From assembly GCF_018069925.1 (NCBI RefSeq), contig NZ_JAGPXB010000017.1, positions 1-64,000 on the forward strand: 64,000 bases of DNA, read 5' to 3'. Each line of letters opens with the position of its first letter. Positions within the stretch are counted from its first letter, which is position 1. Position numbers and translations under genes: made by a program. Origin of the DNA: Flavobacterium erciyesense. Its GTDB lineage: Bacteria; Bacteroidota; Bacteroidia; Flavobacteriales; Flavobacteriaceae. The notes beneath the pieces were generated by a model. The model made no database searches, was not told the origin of the DNA, and worked only from the letters and a program-made list of their open reading frames with translations. This document shows positions 7,433 through 22,419 of the stretch, in pieces.

Positions 7433-7819
7433 TTATTTTATATGAGAATAGACGTAGGCTTCTAACGCTTTCAATTCCTCGTCAGACATGGCTTTTGTGA
7501 GTGCAAAGTTAGCTTTCATTACCTCGTATTGACTTGGGTCTACAATTGGTTCGCCTTCGCCTTTTAAAAACGTGACCATGTCAGCATTTTTACTTTTATA
7601 AATACCCGCAATGTCTTGTAAGCTGGGACCGATTACCTTTTTGTCAATTTGGTGACAGGCGATACAATTTCCCTTTCCTTCAAAAATTTCTTTTCCTAAT
7701 TCTACTGGAGTTTGAGCAACTTCTTCAGTAGTTGTTGGGTACAAGGATTCTTTTTTGGTTTCTTCTTTTTTACAAGATAGAAAGCAACATACTGCTACTA
7801 AGCAAAGGATCTTTTTCAT
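7433..7819 (-). CDS. Cytochrome c lipoprotein (single heme)
   Basis: This 128-residue protein has a lipoprotein signal peptide (MKKILCLVAVCCFLSCKK, lipid cysteine probably C16). One heme-c site, CIACH at residues 52-56, sits in a compact cytochrome fold of the c551/c552 type. It should be a periplasmic, membrane-tethered electron carrier. Its ATG overlaps the hemB stop by one base (TAATG), so it is translationally coupled to hemB and is the last gene of the heme operon. Coupling a heme-c protein to heme synthesis makes functional sense, but its redox partner is not visible here. Confidence 0.9.
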   Translation of the reverse strand: MKKILCLVAVCCFLSCKKEETKKESLYPTTTEEVAQTPVELGKEIFEGKGNCIACHQIDKKVIGPSLQDIAGIYKSKNADMVTFLKGEGEPIVDPSQYEVMKANFALTKAMSDEELKALEAYVYSHIK

Positions 7820-8819: not shown

Positions 8820-10778
8820 TTATTTGAATATTTTTAATATTATTATAACTACTATTAATAGTATTGGGATGACCAAAAATGATATGATTCTGACAGTTAT
8901 TAGCTCATTACGTTCATATTTTTTTGAAACAAAAGATCTTAACATTAGTAAAAATGAAATTAATACAACAAACATTATAAGTAACGCATATAGTTTATCA
9001 TCAAAAGGCACACTTGAATTTGATGTATATGCCCCTTGGAATAACAATGCAATTATAGCAGAAAAAATACCTAATAATTCAATGTTTTTCTTTGAATTAC
9101 TTTTAATGTCTTCTTGTAGTTCATCTCTATCTTTTTCAAAATGCTTCATTATTGAATTAAGATTACTTAGACTCTTTATTTCATTTTCAACCCTTAAAAT
9201 GGATGCCTCTGTATACTTTTCAAATTCATCATACTTTTCAAATTCTATTGGTAAAGAGAAAGTAGCAGAAGAAAACACATTGATAATCTTATCTCCTAAA
9301 ACATGTTTTTTTAAGCATTCTCTGAAAGGTAATTGATATGAATAATTCAAATGTACTTTAGACCACTTTAAAAATCTTTTAAAAAAATCAAAATATTTCT
9401 TTAAAAGATCTAATGATTTATTTACTTGTTTTATTGAATCCTCTGAATCCTTATTATTAAGTGAAAATTCACTTATTTTAATTTCAATGTAATTATTTAA
9501 AAAATCACATATTTTATAATATGGAAAAAAATTATTTAGAAAAGATTCATCTTGAATTTTTTGAATTTTTTTAATATCGCCATTAATAAGCATCTCTATC
9601 TCATCTATATGCAAATCAAAAGAGATATTCCTAATTGCTTCTGAGAAAACATTATTTGATATATAGTTCTTAATTTTATTTAATGAGAAACTATCAAAAA
9701 CTATATTATCAATCGGTATTGAGTCAATTTCTGTTAAAAGCTCTTTAAGTTTATTTAAATCTGTATTTAAATCTTTGTAGCATTTCGTTAAAGCGTGAAA
9801 ATCTAAAGCACTGACCTTACCTATTTTTAGTATTTTTTGAGAATTCCTATTCAGAGTGATTGATTTCTCATAATTATCCTCGCTTAAAAAGTGATTTTTA
9901 GAATATCTATCCCAATCTTTAAAAACATCAAATTGGAGTTTATGAGAAACAAAATCGAAGTTAGATTCTTTTCCCAAAAAAACATAATTTTCATTATGTA
10001 CATCCTCTTCTTTATACTTTCTAATTATAAATTTTCTAATTAAAAAAGTGCTTTTTTCGATTAATAAAATTAAAATATTGGAAATAGCGGGAGTTGATTT
10101 AAAGTACTTATTACAGCTCTCTAATTCATTTTTTGAAATTAATAAACTTTTTAGATCTTCAATATCATATTTTAGATAGAAATCCTTTCTTAATAAGATT
10201 AAATTATTTTTTATAGAAAGTAAAAGCTCTTTTTTTAAATCACTATCATTTATAAAACGGCTATTCTTTAGCTCTTCTAAAATGTCTTGAGTTTGGTCAG
10301 ATAAATCAAAAAGTGTATTTAAAGATGGATTTTCCACCAGTCGCAATAAAAATTTAGAGTTAGATTGATATTCAATGAGACACTTTTTTAAAATTGACAA
10401 TGGCTCTATCTCCTCTATTTTTCCCTCTAATGATAGTAGTAATTTTTCATCGATACCTTCCTTAAATTGAACATATTGTAGTCTACCACAAACAGCAATT
10501 GTTTTTTTTATTGTATCCAAAAAATCATTAAGGAAGCACTCACCAGCAATTATAGATAAATGCAAATATTCAAAATACTTTACTAAAACGTCTTCTTCGA
10601 ACTTTTGAATTTCATTTTCAAAATGACTCAAAAAAACATCACCATAAAAATCTTCATCTTCTTCAATTCCTATTAAAGAGGTCTCTCTTAGAGCATTTTC
10701 ATATGCTTCTGTAGACCAATCTGTCTTTGATAAAACAGTAATTTGATTTAATATTTCTTTTAACCATTCACAATTCAT
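8820..10778 (-). CDS. Large coiled-coil-rich protein with C-terminal membrane tail; candidate Panacea-partner effector
   Basis: I do not recognise this 652-residue protein. The first 560 residues are helical, charged and rich in K, E, N and I, with no catalytic motif that I can name. The tail from about residue 564 carries three hydrophobic segments (about 566-584, 596-614 and 627-650), preceded by KSNSKKNIELLGIFSAIIAL. That kind of helix-into-membrane ending occurs in various accessory and defence proteins. The ATG at 10778 is preferred over an upstream TTG; it lies 5 bp after the stop of the Panacea gene. Base use is far more AT-rich than in the hem genes around it, which suggests horizontal gain. 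Confidence 0.75.
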   Translation of the reverse strand: MNCEWLKEILNQITVLSKTDWSTEAYENALRETSLIGIEEDEDFYGDVFLSHFENEIQKFEEDVLVKYFEYLHLSIIAGECFLNDFLDTIKKTIAVCGRLQYVQFKEGIDEKLLLSLEGKIEEIEPLSILKKCLIEYQSNSKFLLRLVENPSLNTLFDLSDQTQDILEELKNSRFINDSDLKKELLLSIKNNLILLRKDFYLKYDIEDLKSLLISKNELESCNKYFKSTPAISNILILLIEKSTFLIRKFIIRKYKEEDVHNENYVFLGKESNFDFVSHKLQFDVFKDWDRYSKNHFLSEDNYEKSITLNRNSQKILKIGKVSALDFHALTKCYKDLNTDLNKLKELLTEIDSIPIDNIVFDSFSLNKIKNYISNNVFSEAIRNISFDLHIDEIEMLINGDIKKIQKIQDESFLNNFFPYYKICDFLNNYIEIKISEFSLNNKDSEDSIKQVNKSLDLLKKYFDFFKRFLKWSKVHLNYSYQLPFRECLKKHVLGDKIINVFSSATFSLPIEFEKYDEFEKYTEASILRVENEIKSLSNLNSIMKHFEKDRDELQEDIKSNSKKNIELLGIFSAIIALLFQGAYTSNSSVPFDDKLYALLIMFVVLISFLLMLRSFVSKKYERNELITVRIISFLVIPILLIVVIIILKIFK

Positions 10779-10783
10779 TATAA

Positions 10784-11329
10784 TCAAACTAAATCTAAAT
10801 TAATAACTTTTATATCTTTAGTAATATCTTCTTTTGGGATTATAGAAGAATATGAATTCCTAGCTCTAGCTAGCATATAATTTTTTCTCCAACAATTCCA
10901 TTTATGCGATAAATCAACAAGAGTTCCTGCATCAGCAAAGACTAATCTCGGCTCAAGTTCCATTAAGATTTCAATTGAAGACAATATCTTAGATTCTACA
11001 TTTTGATTAATTAACGGCTTATTTCCTGTGAAAGTAATATTGTCATTTGACAATATAAATTCATTAAAATTTTTATTAATTCTAATTCTGGTATAAACAG
11101 TAGTTTCAACTGGACCATAAGGCATCGCCCAAAATTCATTCTCATTTAAGAGCAAATCATCTTTGTCACTATTTATTGCAATGACAAAAAAATGAAGTTT
11201 AATTAATTTTAAAATACTAAAATCATTATTTCTGTTAAAATCTTCAATAGAGACAATGTTGTTTTCTTTCATATACCAATCACGCAAATGAAAAACTACG
11301 TTTTTGAATATTTCAATTGAATTTTCCAT
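10784..11329 (-). CDS. SocA/Panacea (DUF4065) domain protein, candidate antitoxin
   Basis: This 181-residue protein matches the Panacea/SocA pattern. It has a first helix pair (SILKLIKLHFFVIAI, about residues 34-48), the family core AMPYGPVETTVY (about 68-79), and the C-terminal LVDLSHKWNCWRKNY block corresponding to the usual LS-L-T-H---W---Y. Panacea proteins are known as antitoxins that neutralise very different toxins, and as the SocA proteolysis adaptor. Directly downstream, 5 bp after its stop, is a 652-residue membrane-tailed protein, the natural partner. It sits 36 bp after hemF in the same direction and is strongly AT-rich. Confidence 0.82.
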   Translation of the reverse strand: MENSIEIFKNVVFHLRDWYMKENNIVSIEDFNRNNDFSILKLIKLHFFVIAINSDKDDLLLNENEFWAMPYGPVETTVYTRIRINKNFNEFILSNDNITFTGNKPLINQNVESKILSSIEILMELEPRLVFADAGTLVDLSHKWNCWRKNYMLARARNSYSSIIPKEDITKDIKVINLDLV

Positions 11330-15061: not shown

Positions 15062-16366
15062 TTAAGACAAATTAATCTTGTATTTTTCTTCAATTGCTGA
15101 AGGTACAACTTTTGGGGCCAACTGTCCAATTTGAAACACTTTTTCAATAAAATCAATGCTATCGTCTACCGATGTATTTTCATCTTTTAGATGACTTGCA
15201 AAATGATTAGTTATTTTTTGAATGATTCTTGAACTGATTAAATCCGCTTGTTCCTCGTCAAAGTTAATTGTTTTTTTTCTTTGTAACGCCAATTCGGTCG
15301 CAACAATATCATTTAACTTAGCTTTTAGTGCGTGAATAGTTGGCGCATATTTACGACCATTCATCCAAGTATTTAACTCTAATTTTAAATCCTCAATAAT
15401 CGCTTCGGCAGCAGGAATGTGCTGTTTTCTGCGCTCTAAAGTGTCATCCGTCATTTGAGATAAATAATCTAAATGAATTAATGTTACACCATCGATATCA
15501 GCAACATCAGGATTTACATTTCTTGGAATTGATAAATCCAGAATTAAAAGCGGCTTTTTAAGGTTCAAAAGTGTTTTGTCAATAGTTGGATTCTTGGCTC
15601 CGGTAGCCACAACTAGCACATCTGTTTGCTGAATTTCTTCTTGCAAATTGGCATAATCTTTTACAACAACATTCAATTTTCCAGCCAATTGTTCCGCCTT
15701 ATTTTTTGTTCTGTTGATTAGCGTTATGTGACCGTTTTTTGTGTGTTTTACTAAATTTTCGCAAGTATTTCTACCAATTTTTCCAGTTCCAAAAAGCAAA
15801 ATGTTTTTGTTACCAATGTTTTCTACATTACGAATAATATATTGAACTGATGCAAACGAAACCGATGTTGCACCAGATGAAATTTCAGTATCTGTTTTAA
15901 TTTTTTTACTCGCTTGAATAACCGAGTTTACTAAGCGATCCATAAAGGTGTTTACTAAACCTTCTGTTTTACTTACTTTGAATGCATTTTTGATTTGGCT
16001 GATGATTTCAAAATCACCTAATATTTGACTATCTAAACCTGTTCCTACACGAAACATGTGGTTGATAGCATCTTGACTTTTATAAATGTAAGCTACTTCT
16101 TGAAACTCTTCGACAGAGCCATTGCTGTTTTCACAAAGTAATTTGATTAACTCGTAAGGATGATTAGCAAATCCGTATATTTCGGTTCTATTACAAGTAG
16201 AAGTAACAATTAAGGATTCTATTCCTTCTTCTTTAGCTTGCGCCAAAAGTGCTGATTGTGCACTAGCGTCAAGGCTAAATTTCCCTCTCATGGTTGCGTC
16301 TGCTTTCTTGTAACTTAAGCCTAAAGCATAAAAAGTGGTGTTTTTGGACATACTAAATTTTTCCAT
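15062..16366 (-). CDS. hemA: Glutamyl-tRNA reductase
   Basis: This 434-residue enzyme makes glutamate-1-semialdehyde from Glu-tRNA, the first committed step of the C5 heme route. The catalytic cysteine is C58 in TSTCNRTEIYG. The NADPH-binding lobe has GTGKIGRNTCENL (about residues 193-205), and a C-terminal dimerisation helix follows. An internal ATG at 16351 (MSKNTTFYALG) is an alternative start. It is the first gene of the minus-strand heme operon; hemL, the next enzyme, is not in the window. Confidence 0.97.
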   Translation of the reverse strand: MEKFSMSKNTTFYALGLSYKKADATMRGKFSLDASAQSALLAQAKEEGIESLIVTSTCNRTEIYGFANHPYELIKLLCENSNGSVEEFQEVAYIYKSQDAINHMFRVGTGLDSQILGDFEIISQIKNAFKVSKTEGLVNTFMDRLVNSVIQASKKIKTDTEISSGATSVSFASVQYIIRNVENIGNKNILLFGTGKIGRNTCENLVKHTKNGHITLINRTKNKAEQLAGKLNVVVKDYANLQEEIQQTDVLVVATGAKNPTIDKTLLNLKKPLLILDLSIPRNVNPDVADIDGVTLIHLDYLSQMTDDTLERRKQHIPAAEAIIEDLKLELNTWMNGRKYAPTIHALKAKLNDIVATELALQRKKTINFDEEQADLISSRIIQKITNHFASHLKDENTSVDDSIDFIEKVFQIGQLAPKVVPSAIEEKYKINLS

Positions 16367-16724
16367 ATTATACTTTCCTTAAAAAGTTCAACAAAATTAT
16401 TACTAACTATTTTATAAAAACAACGCTAGAGGTACTTTTTATATCGCTATGAAATTAAATATTTGATTGGTGCCTTTTTTGCTCTTAAAAGAGTCGATTT
16501 TCACTGAAATCAAGCTTTAAACACAGTGTTATATATATTAATTCTAAATAAAGGGTTTGTTTTTCCAAGATTTGCGATTGTAAAAAATATCGCTAAGGGT
16601 TCAAAACATCGAGTAGTATTTGTAAAAATTATTTAATTTAAAATACGTTACTCTACATTATTACTTTAACAAAAAAGAAATAAAAACGCTACCCAAAAAA
16701 GGTAGCGTTTTTAACCTTTTCATA
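16367..16724. other. Intergenic region before hemA and after the globin-like gene
   Basis: These 358 bp must hold the heme-operon promoter (reading leftwards) and the terminator of the globin-like gene (16682-16712). The middle is AT-rich. I see no gene, no RNA gene and no clear operator in it. Confidence 0.55.
16682..16712 (-). terminator. Terminator of the globin-like lipoprotein gene
   Basis: AAAAACGCTACC pairs with GGTAGCGTTTTT around a seven-base loop, ending 13 bp after the stop codon on the minus strand. Confidence 0.9.
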
Positions 16725-17312
16725 CTATTCTTGTACGATTGGAGCTCTTAAAGACTCTAATACTGCAACAATATCAGTATATAATTTTGTGTTAGCTGCA
16801 ACACCATTAGCATTTGCAGCTGCACCTACGTACCCAACAAATTTAGTGTACTCAGCTGCATTAGATTTTTTACCCATACGTGGGTTTGTAGCTGGATTGT
16901 GTGCTGCTACCATGTTAAGACCAGAATAAGTGTTTACTGCATTTGTTCCTCCTGTATTGAAAGAGAAAAAGTCAGTAAGATTATCAACTAAAACAGCTAG
17001 TTTAGTTGTATTTCCTGCTCCAACTTCAGTCAATACTGGTGCAAAATGTGCTCCTAAGTTACCTGAAGCATTATTTTGAACATCAGCTACGATAAGCCCT
17101 ACAGTAGAGTTTACTACTTTGCGGAAATTTAGACGTCCTTGCTCAATCATTTGACCAGAATTATCTGGATCAGCAACCATTGCACTTCCGCCTAAACGAG
17201 CGTAGATTGAAGCCTCTGCTGCTGGTGCAGCATCATCATCATTGTTACAAGAAACCAAAGTTGCTGATGCAACTAATAACACACCAAGTGTTAATTTTGA
17301 AAAATGTTTCAT
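16725..17312 (-). CDS. Truncated-hemoglobin-like lipoprotein
   Basis: This 195-residue protein has a lipoprotein signal (SATLVSCNN, lipid cysteine C22) and a low-complexity linker (DDDAAPAAEA). The body starts SIYARLGG, the hallmark opening of group 1 truncated hemoglobins. It ends with GLNMVAAH (H138), at the place of the proximal histidine block, followed by helices to LESLRAPI. The middle is longer and Ala/Gly/Asn-rich compared with classic truncated globins. If it binds heme, it would do so at the periplasmic face of a membrane. It lies at the end of a minus-strand run with the HMA-like and DUF5777 genes, next to hemA. Confidence 0.65.
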   Translation of the reverse strand: MKHFSKLTLGVLLVASATLVSCNNDDDAAPAAEASIYARLGGSAMVADPDNSGQMIEQGRLNFRKVVNSTVGLIVADVQNNASGNLGAHFAPVLTEVGAGNTTKLAVLVDNLTDFFSFNTGGTNAVNTYSGLNMVAAHNPATNPRMGKKSNAAEYTKFVGYVGAAANANGVAANTKLYTDIVAVLESLRAPIVQE

Positions 17313-17330
17313 AATAAAAGTATTTAAGAA

Positions 17331-17765
17331 TTAATTAAAAAATTGATTTACTTTTTGAAAAAATTTATAGCTCGCGCTGTTTTGATCTACAGGGCAAACT
17401 TCTTTATTAGCTAAAGCTTCTGGTAAAATGTAACGCTGTGCGTCATATGCTCCTTTAGCCATCAACTCATTGTATACTTTCTCAGAGTTGGTTACTTTGT
17501 TATTGTGGAAGTACACCACCACATTGCGTTTTACAATAATAGAGTCAGAAGTCAATCCATCTATTGTTCTCAAATCAGCACAAATTTTCTTTGCTTGCAC
17601 AGAGTCAATGTTTGATTTAAAATCGATTCGGCTCACTTGTAAGTTGGGAGTATCATATACAGCGGGCTTAGCCGTTATAATATGAAAGATAAAAATGGCA
17701 ATAAACAACACAACTATAGTTAGTCCTGCCCAAAGTACCTTTTTAAAAATTTTGTTTGTTTTCAT
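17331..17765 (-). CDS. Membrane-anchored HMA-like domain protein
   Basis: This 144-residue protein has one N-terminal membrane helix (about residues 10-31, AGLTIVVLFIAIFIFHIITA) and an extracytoplasmic domain. The pattern VSRIDFKSNIDSVQAKKICA ... VYFHNNKVTNSEKVYNELMAKGAY follows the beta-alpha-beta-beta-alpha-beta order of heavy-metal-associated domains. The CxxC metal site is absent; two separate cysteines (CADLR and VCPVD) remain. I infer a ferredoxin-like fold and do not claim metal binding. It lies 18 bp upstream of the globin-like gene, so the two are very likely one operon. Confidence 0.55.
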   Translation of the reverse strand: MKTNKIFKKVLWAGLTIVVLFIAIFIFHIITAKPAVYDTPNLQVSRIDFKSNIDSVQAKKICADLRTIDGLTSDSIIVKRNVVVYFHNNKVTNSEKVYNELMAKGAYDAQRYILPEALANKEVCPVDQNSASYKFFQKVNQFFN

Positions 17766-17905
17766 AGGTTTGTTGTTTTTTATTTGTTGTATTTGTGTTG
17801 ATATACGTGCACTATTTTAACTTGGTTTTTTCAAAATGTGTTAAAAAAGCTATTTAAATTCATTTTAAATAAAAAAAATAGTACAAACTTCTCGTTTTTA
17901 ACTTC

Positions 17906-18745
17906 TTAAAAAACTCTGGCCAAATTAAATCCAAAGAAAACATCTCCTTTGTTCCAATCTCCAGTTGTTCTTCCTAAGAAACCTGCTTCGTCAATTCCTT
18001 GTGAATTAGTAAAGTGCATTTGAAAAACGTGTCCACCCGTTTCCAAATCAAAACCAATAGAAAGTGGATTATTAAATACTGAATTTCCTGCACGGTTTAA
18101 ATGAGCCGCATAATCAATATTTAACGACCATCTTTTAGAAAACTTATATCTACCACCCATACCTATTGCGTATTGTGTATTGTCTTGCAAAGGATTGTCT
18201 ACAAAATTTTCATGAAATATAGATGGAGCAAGTTCAAGAGATAATTTTTCTGAAAACTTACGAGAAATCAGTAATTGACCAACGTAGGTTAAACGATCAC
18301 TGAATTCTAGATTTGGATACAAACTTTCTTTTAAAGTATTGTTGATAGACATACTATTGAAGCCAGCAATAGTAACCGGAAAACCATCTTTAACTTGTGA
18401 AAACAAAGCGTATTTTGCAGCAAAATCATACGCCAACTGATTACGCGCAGCACTTACATGTAAACCTTCGGTTAAACCATAAATGAATTTTATTTGTGTA
18501 TTGGCATTATCTAGACCATAAAATCCTTCAAAGCCATCTTTAACAGACCCAAAACGGTGCGCTACTACAAAATATAGATCGCCTTTTGCAGCAAGTTTAG
18601 TAGATTCTAAGTTTACAATTTTAAGCGCCTTGAATGCAGAGGTAACTTTCTCTTTGCCAGCAGCGGGTTCAACACCATCTAACAAATCATCTTGTGCAAA
18701 AGTCAATAAGGGTAATAGAAATAATAATAAGGTTAATTTTTTCAT
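17906..18745 (-). CDS. DUF5777-type outer-membrane beta-barrel protein
   Basis: This 279-residue protein has a signal peptide (MKKLTLLLFLLPLLTFAQ) and alternating beta strands to a C-terminal aromatic residue (FGFNLARVF), the outer-membrane barrel pattern. The VVAHRFGSVKDGFEGFYGLD block and the GGHVFQMHFTNSQG block are typical of DUF5777 proteins, which in Bacteroidota often occur next to YceI and cytochrome c genes, as here. The function is unknown. It follows the OB-fold gene by 25 bp, so they are probably co-transcribed. Confidence 0.8.
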   Translation of the reverse strand: MKKLTLLLFLLPLLTFAQDDLLDGVEPAAGKEKVTSAFKALKIVNLESTKLAAKGDLYFVVAHRFGSVKDGFEGFYGLDNANTQIKFIYGLTEGLHVSAARNQLAYDFAAKYALFSQVKDGFPVTIAGFNSMSINNTLKESLYPNLEFSDRLTYVGQLLISRKFSEKLSLELAPSIFHENFVDNPLQDNTQYAIGMGGRYKFSKRWSLNIDYAAHLNRAGNSVFNNPLSIGFDLETGGHVFQMHFTNSQGIDEAGFLGRTTGDWNKGDVFFGFNLARVF

Positions 18746-18770
18746 GTGTTTGGGTTTTTAAAATTGTTGT

Positions 18771-19160
18771 TTATTTAACTATCGAAATTTGATCTAGCTT
18801 GTACTCTTCTAATAATTCATCATAACCTAAAAATCTACCTTTAATCGTTATCGTTTTTCCGGTTAAAGCCTTAAGAGGCGTTTTTTCAATGAAAGTTCCA
18901 AAAACTTTTTCACCTAATACAATTGAGTTATTTGCCTCATCTACACTAGTAACCACATCAACCAACTCAATAGTTTTGTCTGAATATTTGGCATTAGCAA
19001 CGCTATCATTGGTTTGAAATTCAACATCCATATTAGGAATAGAAACCACATAATCAGCTGTTTCAGTTTTAATATCACGATGCTCTTTGTATAAAAACAG
19101 ATAAGAGCAAGTAGCAACTACTCCTACAAGTGCAATTCCTACAAGTATTTTTTTGTTCAT
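18771..19160 (-). CDS. OB-fold (tRNA_anti-like) membrane-anchored protein
   Basis: This 129-residue protein starts at the ATG at 19160 (MNKKILVG); an ATG 9 bp upstream would add three residues. It has one N-terminal hydrophobic helix, then an extracytoplasmic domain ending IKGRFLGYDELLEEYKLDQ, the signature end of tRNA_anti-like OB-fold proteins of Bacteroidota. It begins the minus-strand group DUF5777, HMA-like, globin-like. A divergent promoter region separates it from the heme-c lipoprotein gene. Despite the fold name, no nucleic-acid role is implied. Confidence 0.72.
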   Translation of the reverse strand: MNKKILVGIALVGVVATCSYLFLYKEHRDIKTETADYVVSIPNMDVEFQTNDSVANAKYSDKTIELVDVVTSVDEANNSIVLGEKVFGTFIEKTPLKALTGKTITIKGRFLGYDELLEEYKLDQISIVK

Positions 19161-19190
19161 GGTGGGCAATTTTTTAGGTTTAAGGGATAT

Positions 19191-19323
19191 ACGATAAAAA
19201 GATTCTTATGGTTTCTTCATTATTTTTTAATATTGTTTAAAACTAAAGCTTCGTTTTTATCGTAAATAAAATTATAATTCACTACTATTGGTAATTATTT
19301 AAAAGTTAACAACTTACGATAAA
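19191..19323. promoter_or_regulatory. Divergent promoter region with three spaced ACGATAAA motifs
   Basis: Between the OB-fold gene and the heme-c lipoprotein gene, ACGATAAA occurs at 19191-19198, inverted at 19256-19263 (TTTATCGT), and again at 19316-19323, with starts 65 and 60 bp apart. A fourth ACGATAAA is at 21287-21294 in front of hemH. They could be operators of a shared regulator, perhaps the nearby AraC protein. The motif is short and AT-rich, so chance is possible. Confidence 0.35.
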
Positions 19324-19338
19324 TTTAAAACAAAAAAC

Positions 19339-19713
19339 ATGAAATCACAATTAGTATTCACAGCTTTAACGTTTGTTGCACTTTTGACAAGCTGCAGCAA
19401 TGAGGATTCAGAAACACTTACATCAACGCCACCTCCTAACTCTACGGCCAAAGTGACCTATAATCAAAACATTAAAACAATTATTGACAACAATTGCGTG
19501 GTTTGCCATGCGGCAGTACCACGAAATGGCGCTCCAAATTCATTAGTAACTTACGCACAGGTAAAAGAATCGATTACCAATCGTGGTTTATTAAACCGCA
19601 TCTCTCTTCCTAACGGGAATGGTTTACTAATGCCACAAGGCGGGCCAAGGATGCCACAAGGTACGATAGATTTAGTTGCGAAATGGCAACAAGACGGATT
19701 ATTAGAACAATAA
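19339..19713 (+). CDS. Heme-c-binding lipoprotein
   Basis: This 124-residue protein has a lipoprotein signal peptide ending LLTSCSNED (lipid cysteine about C19). A single heme-c site CVVCH (about residues 54-58) follows the helix YNQNIKTIIDNNC. The rest (LLMPQGGPRMPQGTIDLVAKW) includes methionines that could provide the distal ligand. It resembles the small c-type domains found before YceI in Bacteroidota. It should be a periplasmic electron carrier. The YceI gene starts 10 bp after its stop. Confidence 0.87.
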   Translation: MKSQLVFTALTFVALLTSCSNEDSETLTSTPPPNSTAKVTYNQNIKTIIDNNCVVCHAAVPRNGAPNSLVTYAQVKESITNRGLLNRISLPNGNGLLMPQGGPRMPQGTIDLVAKWQQDGLLEQ

Positions 19714-19723
19714 ATAATTGAAA

Positions 19724-20263
19724 ATGAAGAAATTAATAACTGTAGCGTTATTATGCCTAACTCTAACAGGCTTTGCGCAAGAAAAAATGATCACTAAAAC
19801 AGGTAAAATTAACTTTGAAGGATCGGTTTCATCTTTTGAAGAAGTTAAAGCCTCGAACAACAATGTCACATTTGTATTAAATCCTAACACAGGAGAAATT
19901 GCAAGTTTAGCATTAGTAAAAGGTTTTCGATTTAAAGTGGCACTTATGGAGGAACATTTTAACGAAAACTACGTAGAAAGCGATAAATACCCAAAAGCTA
20001 CTTTTAAAGGTAAACTTTCTAGCTTTGACGTAAAAAATCTAAGTGAAACACCAAAAGAGTTCCCGTTAACCGGTAAATTAGAGTTGCATGGCAAAACGAA
20101 TGATATTAAAACCACTGCAAAAATAAGTAAAACTGCTGCGGGCATTAAGATTGTCTCAAACTTTGCAGTAAATGCTAGTGATTACAATATTGCTATTCCT
20201 GCTGTTGTAAAACGAAAAGTATCAAACAAGATTAACATCGAAATTGATGCTACCGTAAAATAG
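19724..20263 (+). CDS. YceI-family periplasmic protein
   Basis: This 179-residue protein has a signal peptide (MKKLITVALLCLTLTGFAQ) and the YceI lipocalin-like barrel. Visible family marks are GKINFEGSVSSFEEVKA, HFNENYVESDKYPKATFKG and LELHGKTNDIK. YceI proteins bind isoprenoid-type lipids such as quinones. The ATG at 19724 is preferred over a TTG 6 bp upstream, since it gives a normal signal peptide. It is coupled to the heme-c lipoprotein just before it, which suggests a shared role in periplasmic quinone or electron handling. Confidence 0.9.
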   Translation: MKKLITVALLCLTLTGFAQEKMITKTGKINFEGSVSSFEEVKASNNNVTFVLNPNTGEIASLALVKGFRFKVALMEEHFNENYVESDKYPKATFKGKLSSFDVKNLSETPKEFPLTGKLELHGKTNDIKTTAKISKTAAGIKIVSNFAVNASDYNIAIPAVVKRKVSNKINIEIDATVK

Positions 20264-20395: not shown

Positions 20396-21265
20396 ATGGA
20401 AGAAGAAATTAACATTGAAAACGATTTTACCTTAATTCGATTTCAAAACGACAGTTCGGCCCCATTGTTTGCGCAGCGTGAAACTACAAGTGGTTTAATT
20501 CAATTTCATTTTGGTCTAAAAGGAAATGCCAAGTTTTTGTTTAATCAGGGTAACTATGCTTTAGAACTAAAAGAAGAAAAGTCGCTACTTTTATACAATC
20601 CACAAAAAGAACTGCCCTTGAACTTGGAATTAGCTCCAAATTCTTGGGTTATTTCTGTAATAATTTCTATTAAAAAATTTCACGCTCTTTTCTCTACCGA
20701 AGCTGATTATATCACATTTTTAAGTGCTGATAATAGAGACAAAAAATACTATAACGAAGGAAATATAAGTCCATCAATGGCTATTGTGCTGTCACAATTG
20801 TTTCATTACAATTTGCATCCTTCTATTAAAAACTTGTATTACAAAGGCAAAGGCTACGAGTTGTTGAGCCTGTATTTTAACCGTACCGAAGATCCAAATG
20901 CAGAGCAATGTCCGTTCTTGATTGATGAAGACAATGTAATTAAGATAAAAAAAGCCAAAGAAATCATCATTTCAAACATGGCAGAACCACCGGGATTGCA
21001 AGAATTAGCAGACGAGGTGGGGCTGAATATCAAAAAACTGAAAATGGGATTCAAACAAATTTATGGCGACACCGTTTACGGATTTTTATTTGATTACAAA
21101 ATGGATTTTGCACGCAAACTACTTGATAGCGGTTCATACAACGTGAACGAAGTGGGATTAAAAATCGGCTATAGTACCGGCAGTCATTTTATTGCAGCAT
21201 TCAAAAAGAAATTTGCCACCACGCCAAAAAAATACTTAATGTCCATCAACCCAAACATGAATTAG
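20396..21265 (+). CDS. AraC-family transcriptional regulator
   Basis: This 289-residue protein has a C-terminal AraC DNA-binding domain with two helix-turn-helix units: LQELADEVGLNIKKLKMGFK (about residues 200-220) and VNEVGLKIGYSTGSHFIAAF, followed by KKKFATTPKKYL. The N-terminal part is a cupin-like sensor that I cannot assign to a ligand. In Flavobacterium an AraC gene commonly lies beside hemA and hemH, which suggests control of heme or iron genes. Here it is 99 bp upstream of hemH. Confidence 0.9.
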   Translation: MEEEINIENDFTLIRFQNDSSAPLFAQRETTSGLIQFHFGLKGNAKFLFNQGNYALELKEEKSLLLYNPQKELPLNLELAPNSWVISVIISIKKFHALFSTEADYITFLSADNRDKKYYNEGNISPSMAIVLSQLFHYNLHPSIKNLYYKGKGYELLSLYFNRTEDPNAEQCPFLIDEDNVIKIKKAKEIIISNMAEPPGLQELADEVGLNIKKLKMGFKQIYGDTVYGFLFDYKMDFARKLLDSGSYNVNEVGLKIGYSTGSHFIAAFKKKFATTPKKYLMSINPNMN

Positions 21266-21363: not shown

Positions 21364-22419
21364 ATGAAAGGTGTATTATTAGTAAACTTAGGCTCTCCAG
21401 AAAGTCCAACTCCAAAAGATGTAAAGCCGTATTTAGATGAGTTCTTGATGGATAAATACGTGATAGACGTTCCATTTTTATTGCGTGCATTATTGGTACG
21501 TGGAATCATTTTACAAACGAGACCTAAAAAATCAGCTGCAGCTTACTCAAGGATTTGGTGGGACGAAGGATCTCCGCTTGTTGTTATTTCGCGTCGTATG
21601 CACGAAAAAGTGCAAGCGCAAGTTGATGTGCCAGTTGCTTTAGCAATGCGCTACGGAAATCCATCCTTATTGTCTGGTTTACAAGAACTACATGATAAAG
21701 GAGTGACCGAAGTAATGTTGTTTCCGTTGTACCCACAACACGCGATGGCCTCTACTACAACCATTTTAGAATTAGCCGAAGAGCACCGCAAAAAATATTT
21801 CCCTGAAATGAAATTCACGATAGTACCTGCGTTTTACAACAAACCTGACTATCTACAAAACTTAGCCGACTCGATCAAAGGCCATTTAGAAGGTTTTGAT
21901 TACGATCATTTGTTGTTTTCATACCACGGAATTCCAGAACGTCACATTCGTAAAACAGATGTAACCAAATCACACTGCAAAATTGATGGATCTTGTTGTA
22001 ACACACCATCACCAGCGCATGAGTTTTGCTACCGCCATCAATGTTACGAAACTACCAAACAAGTAGTTAAACTTTTGGGAATTCCAGAAGGAAAATACAG
22101 CCAAACCTTTCAGTCACGTTTAGCAGGTGACAAATGGTTGCGTCCATACACTGACGTGGAAGTAAACAAAATGCCTGAAAAAGGAATTAAAAATCTAGCT
22201 GTAGTTACTCCTGCATTTGTCTCTGACTGTTTAGAAACACTAGAAGAAATTGCAATGGAAGCCAACGAAGAATTCTTGCACCACGGTGGCGAAAAATTTA
22301 TGGCGATTCCTTGTTTAAATGATAGTGACGATTGGTGTAAAACTGTGAGCAATTGGATTACTAATTGGACAAAAGTAACAACAACAAGTACTGCAACAGC
22401 AGAATCTGTTGCAGTGTAA
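21364..22419 (+). CDS. hemH: Ferrochelatase
   Basis: This 351-residue enzyme inserts ferrous iron into protoporphyrin IX, the last step of protoheme synthesis. Visible signatures are LLVNLGSPESPTPKDVKPYL at the N-terminus, YPQHAMASTT, and LLFSYHGIPERHIRK with the catalytic histidine. A further block is CYRHQCYETTKQV, followed by TPAFVSDCLETLEEIAMEA. The C-terminal 15 residues are a Thr/Ala-rich tail. It has its own -7 box. The rest of the heme pathway lies on the other strand to the left. Confidence 0.98.
   Translation: MKGVLLVNLGSPESPTPKDVKPYLDEFLMDKYVIDVPFLLRALLVRGIILQTRPKKSAAAYSRIWWDEGSPLVVISRRMHEKVQAQVDVPVALAMRYGNPSLLSGLQELHDKGVTEVMLFPLYPQHAMASTTTILELAEEHRKKYFPEMKFTIVPAFYNKPDYLQNLADSIKGHLEGFDYDHLLFSYHGIPERHIRKTDVTKSHCKIDGSCCNTPSPAHEFCYRHQCYETTKQVVKLLGIPEGKYSQTFQSRLAGDKWLRPYTDVEVNKMPEKGIKNLAVVTPAFVSDCLETLEEIAMEANEEFLHHGGEKFMAIPCLNDSDDWCKTVSNWITNWTKVTTTSTATAESVAV

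Follow-up and report, generated by a model that had tools for sequence, protein, structure and literature searches.

An island of exported and membrane proteins beside hemA in Flavobacterium erciyesense: two gene modules with a common predicted ECF-type promoter

We analyzed a 64,000-nucleotide stretch of the Flavobacterium erciyesense genome (contig NZ_JAGPXB010000017.1, positions 1 to 64,000; hereafter the window), in which an island of six open reading frames (ORFs) for exported or membrane proteins lies between the heme synthesis gene hemA and an AraC-family regulator gene followed by hemH. All three transcription units of this island carry a bipartite promoter of the extracytoplasmic function (ECF) type, AAAWCY-N16-CGTANAT (AAA[AT]C[CT]-N16-CGTANAT), which is found on the island units and not on hemA, AraC or hemH, so that the island genes look co-regulated with each other and not with heme synthesis. 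Our preferred reading, held tentatively and at a little under even confidence, is that the island is an envelope redox regulon of two modules under an ECF sigma factor, a SigK-type defense against oxidized lipids or radicals.

The island genes and their common promoter

The original prediction had placed six genes between hemA and AraC/hemH, and we recovered every one of them as an ORF at the same position; its gene names also held, by Pfam for DUF5777, the OB-fold protein and YceI, by a CxxCH motif for the cytochrome, and by structural models for the globin-like and HMA-like proteins. Three transcription units are likely from the gene spacing. The first, on the minus strand, joins OBF (18771..19169, likely ATG start at 19160), a membrane-anchored OB-fold protein of the tRNA_anti-like family (24.6 bits, cut-off 23.5), over a gap of 25 bp to DUF5777 (also BBP; 17906..18745; PF19089, 290.7 bits, cut-off 23.1), an outer-membrane beta-barrel by its family description. 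The second, also on the minus strand, joins HMA (17331..17765), an N-terminal membrane helix with a ferredoxin-like HMA domain lacking CXXC, over 18 bp to GLB (16725..17312), a lipoprotein with the fold of a group-1 truncated globin; GLB had no Pfam match, the three Pfam matches of HMA were all at chance level, and neither protein passed any cut-off in NCBIfam. The third, on the plus strand, joins CYC (19339..19713), a monoheme c-type cytochrome lipoprotein with a conserved MP near its C-terminus, over 4 bp to YCE (19718..20263, likely ATG start at 19724), a secreted lipocalin-like protein of the YceI family (56.8 bits, cut-off 23.7). CYC contains CxxCH and stays below the Pfam cut-off (Cytochrome_CBB3, 18.8 against 27 bits). 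Identification of OBF as CcmE was considered and dropped, since the conserved His of OBF precedes the OB domain.

The promoter element was first spotted when the divergent region between OBF and CYC was aligned. In the window it stands before HMA-GLB as an exact match (17801..17829, minus strand, AAAACC-N16-CGTATAT), before OBF-BBP with one mismatch (19187..19215, minus) and before CYC-YceI again as an exact match (19239..19267, plus, AAAACT-N16-CGTAAAT). These are the only window sites with at most one mismatch. Two exact sites with a spacer of 16 were found against 0.04 expected, and it is these two, with their placement, that are unusual. When spacers of 13-18 were allowed, the pattern occurred on the OBF side in 41/46 and on the CYC side in 44/46 hem-type regions 100 bp or longer, many of them near-identical, compared with 0.0003 per region and strand in a control with mononucleotide shuffling.

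The survey was extended to 131 Flavobacterium loci including repeats, equal to 119 distinct places, many of which are still closely related. Taken over all loci there were 266 matches, assigned to HMA (76), CYC (68), OBF (58), a fasciclin gene (23), a YHS-domain gene (8), a sigma factor gene (4), others (5) or no ORF (24); by distinct places the counts were 64 for HMA, 57 for CYC, 49 for OBF, 18 for fasciclin and 5 for YHS. In relaxed form, the pattern stood before HMA in 74 of the 84 loci, or 62 of the 72 distinct places; 12 of these belong to the 18 places where the stretch has neither DUF5777 nor hemA. After removal of near-duplicate upstream regions, the strict form with a spacer of 16 was present before HMA in 46/56, before CYC in 46/71 and before OBF in 27/60. 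Scanning spacers from 8 to 24 before these three genes gave 119 matches at 16 and 3 at all other lengths together, and a scrambled -10 box gave none. The strict form was absent from the distinct regions upstream of hemA (0/55), AraC (0/50), hemH (0/49), hemC (0/35), DUF5777 (0/63) and YceI (0/90), and upstream of GLB it occurred once in 54, in L156, where no HMA was found. A scan for the sigma-70 consensus was uninformative (19 found against a shuffled mean of 28.2). A single predicted promoter type common to the island units is thus well supported, and it turns these genes, including a globin lipoprotein that differs from the usual soluble truncated globins, into one testable predicted regulon.

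In the window itself, the regions upstream of hemA (15062..16366, minus strand), of the AraC-family regulator gene, the usual divergent neighbor of hemA (20396..21265, plus), and of hemH (21364..22419, plus) are without this promoter type. Heme co-regulation through the island promoter was therefore ruled out. A strong intrinsic terminator directly 3' of GLB (16681..16713, minus), between GLB and hemA, likewise rules out hemA as a part of the GLB operon.

Two modules and their tie to the heme genes

The genes CYC, YceI, OBF and DUF5777 form an old core conserved in Bacteroidota. Among named relatives, Flavobacterium turcicum was the nearest that turned up (DUF5777 98% identical; hemA and AraC 100%). 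A set of 80 named DUF5777 loci of Flavobacterium was taken as the best of 325 relatives and so leans to close ones; in it CYC was present in 80, YceI and OBF in 79 each, GLB in 48, and HMA and hemA in 47 each. DUF5777 was present in 57 of 120 Flavobacteriaceae genomes, from which 76 loci were fetched around its matches, two matches under the cut-off being left out. Where DUF5777 reached at least 45% identity, CYC, YceI and OBF were all present in 44/49 loci, while none of the 49 fetched stretches contained GLB or HMA, and none contained hemA or hemH. Across the phylum DUF5777 was detected in 115 of the 296 genomes drawn, and in 40 deeper loci, hand-picked to cover many families, CYC lay within four genes of it in 36, YceI in 31 and OBF in 6, frequently in the order CYC-YceI-DUF5777. 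CxxCH is present in 93/93 CYC proteins of Flavobacterium and 68/70 of Flavobacteriaceae. Neighboring genes were annotated with Pfam on representatives. DUF5777, mostly accompanied by the cytochrome and YceI in the loci examined, is thus a widespread uncharacterized unit; we found no literature naming it, and no paper on this locus in searches combining YceI with Flavobacteri and cytochrome c or, by title among the matches listed, YceI, operon, hemA and Flavobacterium.

Two other accounts of this distribution were tried. A plasmid origin was ruled out, as DUF5777 matches only 4 of 72,556 plasmid records. A restriction to aerobes was set aside because COX1, present in 285/296 genomes, is too common to give a contrast; none of the 11 genomes lacking it has DUF5777, and 8 of these 11 come from one family, so they carry little weight.

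The core varies in composition. Two different YceI genes follow CYC in most of L129-L149, L151-L165, L168 and L171, and a single one is found in the window as well as in L150, L163 and others. A secreted protein with a tag for the type IX secretion system (T9SS) may lie between OBF and DUF5777 (L032:5935-6690 and L087:8431-9000, the latter with a cupredoxin domain). One contig titled as a Bifidobacterium breve metagenome-assembled genome (L201) carries a DUF5777 locus of the Flavobacterium type, probably through a binning error.

HMA and GLB constitute a separate module, added to the core in Flavobacterium. They were found in 52 and 53 of 150 sampled Flavobacterium genomes, respectively, or about one third, and were adjacent in all 34 loci mapped; their surroundings may include or lack hemA and, likewise, the core. 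Among the 120 Flavobacteriaceae genomes the HMA profile matched its own genome only, and the GLB profile had three more, weak matches, of which two fell on the globin half of frames 128 residues long. The claim that the island genes belong together is thus borne out by gene order and co-occurrence, with the core in nearly all of the 80 named loci, the constant HMA-GLB pair and the promoter common to the three units.

The original prediction had also regarded hemA and AraC as close neighbors and the island as an insertion among the heme genes. The neighborhood was confirmed: among the first 40 AraC rows after that of the window itself, 35 have a divergent hemA at 235-252 bp, and in the remaining five (G179, G185, G125, G182 and G134) HMA-GLB or the whole island sits between the two genes. 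The island does interrupt this pair, but it did not enter as one block, a possibility ruled out by HMA-GLB occurring alone and with hemA only: without the core, the pair also stands between hemA and AraC, and elsewhere it lies near neither of them.

Several large Flavobacterium genomes have at least two hemA copies, the native one beside AraC without an island and the other in a cassette of the order hemA-GLB-HMA-DUF5777-OBF/CYC-YceI-YceI-AraC-hemH. A further hemA, often with hemH, is thus carried with the island away from the native hem cluster (L132-L165, L229-L233). In a hemA tree of 43 rows, in which near-identical rows within a class were left out, L128 stands for the window and 2/9 native copies were kept, the second copies cluster together (SH-aLRT support 93); 17 of them have the core and 3 have HMA-GLB only. 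The native copies retained for G161 and G222 fall outside this group, and support for the deepest split is weak. Second-copy hemA and hemH are full-length and under purifying selection (median pN/pS 0.13 for 9 sequences and 0.10 for 5, respectively). The heme genes thus moved with the island and were retained, which may reflect a use of extra heme or merely a shared recombination tract. In G228, G176 and G254, which have lost DUF5777 and OBF at this place, HMA-GLB still has hemA as its neighbor, and in L227 (G254) a DUF5777 remnant with stop codons adjoins HMA-GLB-hemA, so that the core was lost there and HMA, GLB and hemA stayed. For the shared role with heme synthesis that had been predicted, the evidence points both ways: the second cassette carried with the island in many genomes speaks for it, and the missing promoter on hemA, AraC and hemH, together with the 49 core loci without hemA or hemH, against it. 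The tie of the island to heme synthesis is one of place and not of this promoter.

Elsewhere in the window, the hem cluster is broken by two genes ahead of hemF (8820-11329); one encodes a weak SocA/Panacea antitoxin-like protein (E 0.0004, below cut-off) and the other a 655-residue protein with no Pfam match, and neither had a PADLOC match. A second, clear cytochrome c lipoprotein (7433-7819; Cytochrom_C, 42 bits) directly adjoins hemB.

The surface globin and the candidate sigma factor

GLB is, by its model, a group-1 truncated globin. The AlphaFold2 model (pLDDT 77.7) has a 2-on-2 globin fold across the whole domain and aligns with 1s56 (VIA) over 122 residues with Z 14.8 and a root-mean-square deviation (rmsd) of 2.9. 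The top rows of both structure search lists are all truncated globins, as are 12 of the 13 matches of the GLB profile to PDB sequences (best E 0.03). The proximal His138 (F8, in the motif GG...Y.G..M..AH) is invariant in all 24 rows, GLB and 23 relatives, and aligns with the His of truncated hemoglobin (trHb). Leu108, which is invariant, and Leu112, which is nearly so, align with Gln46 and Gln50 of Tetrahymena trHb, sites that we take to be E7 and E11; the polar distal pair of that protein is absent, which points to an apolar distal pocket. Bac_globin of Pfam (PF01152) matched 0/24 GLB members at E up to 1. As for HMA, its model has the beta-alpha-beta-beta-alpha-beta ferredoxin-like fold and aligns with 8rnz over 74 residues (Z 10.1, rmsd 2.3), and the top Foldseek rows are mostly HMA domains. 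In an alignment of 22 rows no CXXC metal site was found in HMA, and H28, H87 and C124 are invariant.

The mature N-terminus of GLB reads C-NNDDDD, and those of others, for example, C-SDDDD. According to the available passages of one report, lipoprotein export signals are SDDFE in F. johnsoniae and SDDDD in B. fragilis (PMC5080379). At least three D/E residues in positions +2 to +6 after the cysteine were present in 32 of 50 distinct GLB proteins versus none of 62 distinct CYC proteins. By likeness to the surface-lipoprotein export signal of Bacteroidetes, GLB is probably displayed on the cell surface. The original prediction was right that all six proteins are exported or membrane-bound, and its label periplasmic is doubtful for GLB in view of the residues that follow the cysteine. 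To our knowledge, the cell surface would be an unprecedented place for a truncated globin.

We infer that the sigma factor for the island promoter is a SigK/RskA-like ECF sigma factor. A pair of an ECF sigma factor and an anti-sigma factor with an RskA_C domain lies near the island hemA or beside HMA-GLB in 18/131 loci (16/119 distinct places), and the sigma gene itself has an exact copy of the promoter upstream in L221 and a copy with one mismatch in L219. A fasciclin gene shares the promoter (23 loci, 18 distinct places), and some copies of the island genes stand next to both this gene and a SigK/RskA-like pair; the YHS-domain gene adds 8 loci in 5 places. In F. psychrophilum a conserved CGT box at -10 was taken as the mark of an ECF promoter, as stated in passages of that study (PMC9723704). 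The parts available of the mycobacterial literature describe SigK/RskA as controlling fasciclin-domain proteins (PMC10540498), SigK as depending on a redox-sensitive disulfide (PMC7509140, PMC8103513) and, in M. kansasii, fasciclin genes with putative SigK sites as rising in light (PMC9861118). No literature was found that joins fasciclin, YceI and a sigma factor.

Envelope defense, its rivals and known systems

The gene groups, the folds (by model) and the promoter pattern were computed; beyond them, we infer the SigK assignment, the localization, the ligand and the chemistry of a possible mechanism. On damage to the envelope, a SigK/RskA-like pair would be released and activate the three units. 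A quinone antioxidant would then cross the periplasm to the outer membrane bound to YceI and be held in its reduced state by CYC, and the DUF5777 barrel would exchange the hydrophobic cargo. GLB, on the surface, might capture or break down a lipid peroxide or some small radical or gas, for example NO. One report, as far as its available passages go, states that most solved YceI lipocalins hold an isoprenoid, for example ubiquinone-8, and that Burkholderia mutants in BcnA (a YceI protein) or in the cytochrome LcoA show raised lipid peroxidation (PMC9113575). A defense of the envelope against oxidized lipids or radicals fits YceI and a cytochrome under a SigK-like factor, fasciclin as a co-target, and the glutathione peroxidase gene that adjoins HMA-GLB in L219.

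Several observations weigh against this defense reading or its sigma factor. The OBF and CYC counts are not independent of the discovery of the promoter, whereas the HMA, fasciclin, YHS and sigK matches are. The three window sites with at most one mismatch are not above chance for 64 kb (mean 2.34, maximum 10, in 100 draws of an order-1 Markov model), and the exact promoter halves also occur once each in the window at spacers of 12, 19 and 21. The 16 sigma-linked places reduce to about two lineages; SigK was seen neither near the window nor in the fetched stretches of primary-locus relatives, no search for the pair having covered the genome of the window; none of five further sigK copies has the promoter, and at least one of the four matches assigned to the sigma gene (in L162) lies inside its frame. 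The promoter is scarce outside Flavobacterium, with 1 match in 1.09 Mb of loci from other genera and 0 in 0.62 Mb of deeper loci, and in core loci without HMA-GLB the strict form precedes CYC in only 9/32 and OBF in 2/29 distinct regions; the link to the sigma factor therefore weakens outside the hem-type clade. In the deep loci CxxCH is missing from 17/49 CYC-profile matches and present in 32/49. Finally, no cytochrome b561 was matched by Pfam among the six genes, and the known YceI mechanism, as given in the passages available, uses one.

The island could instead be an outer-membrane electron conduit, in which DUF5777 and CYC pass respiratory electrons to the surface or to an external acceptor with YceI as quinone carrier and the globin as an accessory; we regard this as unlikely, though not strongly so. 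CYC lies beside DUF5777 even in divergent paralogues, a T9SS-tagged cupredoxin sits between OBF and DUF5777 in L087, and seven Flavobacteriaceae loci (L059, L061-L065 and L068) join a divergent DUF5777 and CYC with NrfD and 4Fe-4S genes and with a multiheme c552-like protein, an ethylbenzene-dehydrogenase-type protein or both (Pfam on L061 representatives only). In the island, however, CYC has one CxxCH and no multiheme protein is encoded, and one heme is too few to span a barrel as in MtrCAB; there is also no quinol-oxidizing complex in the window island, the strong surface signal is missing from CYC, and no part in a conduit is known for OBF or YceI. Handling of heme, oxygen or NO outside the cytoplasm, matched to heme synthesis, with GLB binding NO or O2 or storing heme that hemA and hemH supply, is a possible role through the globin; as an explanation of the whole island we find it distinctly doubtful. 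The invariant proximal His of GLB, the purifying selection on hemA and hemH in the second-copy islands and the retention of hemA beside HMA-GLB after loss of DUF5777 and OBF are in its favor, but the promoter is not common to hemA, AraC and hemH, a terminator separates GLB from hemA, both HMA-GLB and the core are also found at a distance from hem genes, and Leu replaces Gln at E7 and E11 relative to the aligned trHb.

Envelope handling of copper or iron, with HMA, YHS and the cupredoxin-type neighbor as metal traffic for exported heme or copper proteins, appears very improbable. HMA has the fold and the three invariant residues H28, H87 and C124, the YHS protein falls under the same promoter and a cupredoxin adjoins the core in L087; yet HMA lacks CXXC, no metal transporter is among the six genes, and the HMA profile is confined to its own genome among 120 of the family. 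That unrelated exported genes were simply gathered at a permissive site beside hemA is scarcely credible: the two modules are indeed separable and found in different places, but the promoter is shared at an exact spacing even where HMA-GLB is far from the core, and the core is kept across the phylum.

Extending the preferred reading of envelope defense, we offer as an unlikely speculation that CYC, YceI and DUF5777 form a trans-envelope relay throughout Bacteroidota, the lipocalin, in soluble form, ferrying quinone between the respiratory chain and a barrel-cytochrome unit of the outer membrane that would quench radicals in its outer leaflet, and that in Flavobacterium a SigK-type sigma factor couples this relay to a surface truncated globin. 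Such a relay, if true, would represent a novel class of redox machine at the outer membrane. Through the shared promoter, the island genes become candidates for what protects or wires the outer membrane of Bacteroidota.

In porin-cytochrome conduits of the MtrCAB type, an outer-membrane barrel and a cytochrome are encoded together, along with a decaheme partner. The island too joins such a barrel with a cytochrome, but its cytochrome is single-heme, there is no decaheme partner, and the barrel family differs by name. With group-1 trHbN (e.g., 1s56), GLB shares the 2-on-2 fold by model, the proximal His and the motif GG...Y.G..M..AH; unlike trHbN, it is a lipoprotein that carries a signal of the surface type and has additional inserts, E7 and E11 are both Leu, and Bac_globin matched none of the 24 members.

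At the level of regulation, the SM6 ECF promoters of F. psychrophilum (PMC9723704) resemble the island promoter in the CGT box at -10, in being presumed ECF promoters and in coming from the same genus; the SM6 genes named in the available passages are T9SS components and Band-7 proteins, and these passages make no mention of YceI, globin, lipocalin or SigK. The mycobacterial SigK/RskA regulon (MPB70/MPB83), as described in parts of PMC10540498 and PMC7509140, would be similar in its ECF sigma factor with an RskA-type anti-sigma factor and its small regulon of exported proteins, and further in having fasciclin among the likely targets and the sigma gene near its targets in some genomes. Unlike the genes in the portion of the mycobacterial list available, those of the island encode redox proteins, and here the sigma link is computational. 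The BcnA-LcoA system of Burkholderia cenocepacia, which detoxifies lipid peroxyl radicals, as far as the available passages describe it (PMC9113575), has in common with the island a YceI lipocalin encoded with a cytochrome, export and an envelope location; the island differs in that the c-type lipoprotein CYC replaces cytochrome b561 and that DUF5777 and the OB-fold protein are added and, in Flavobacterium, HMA and the globin.

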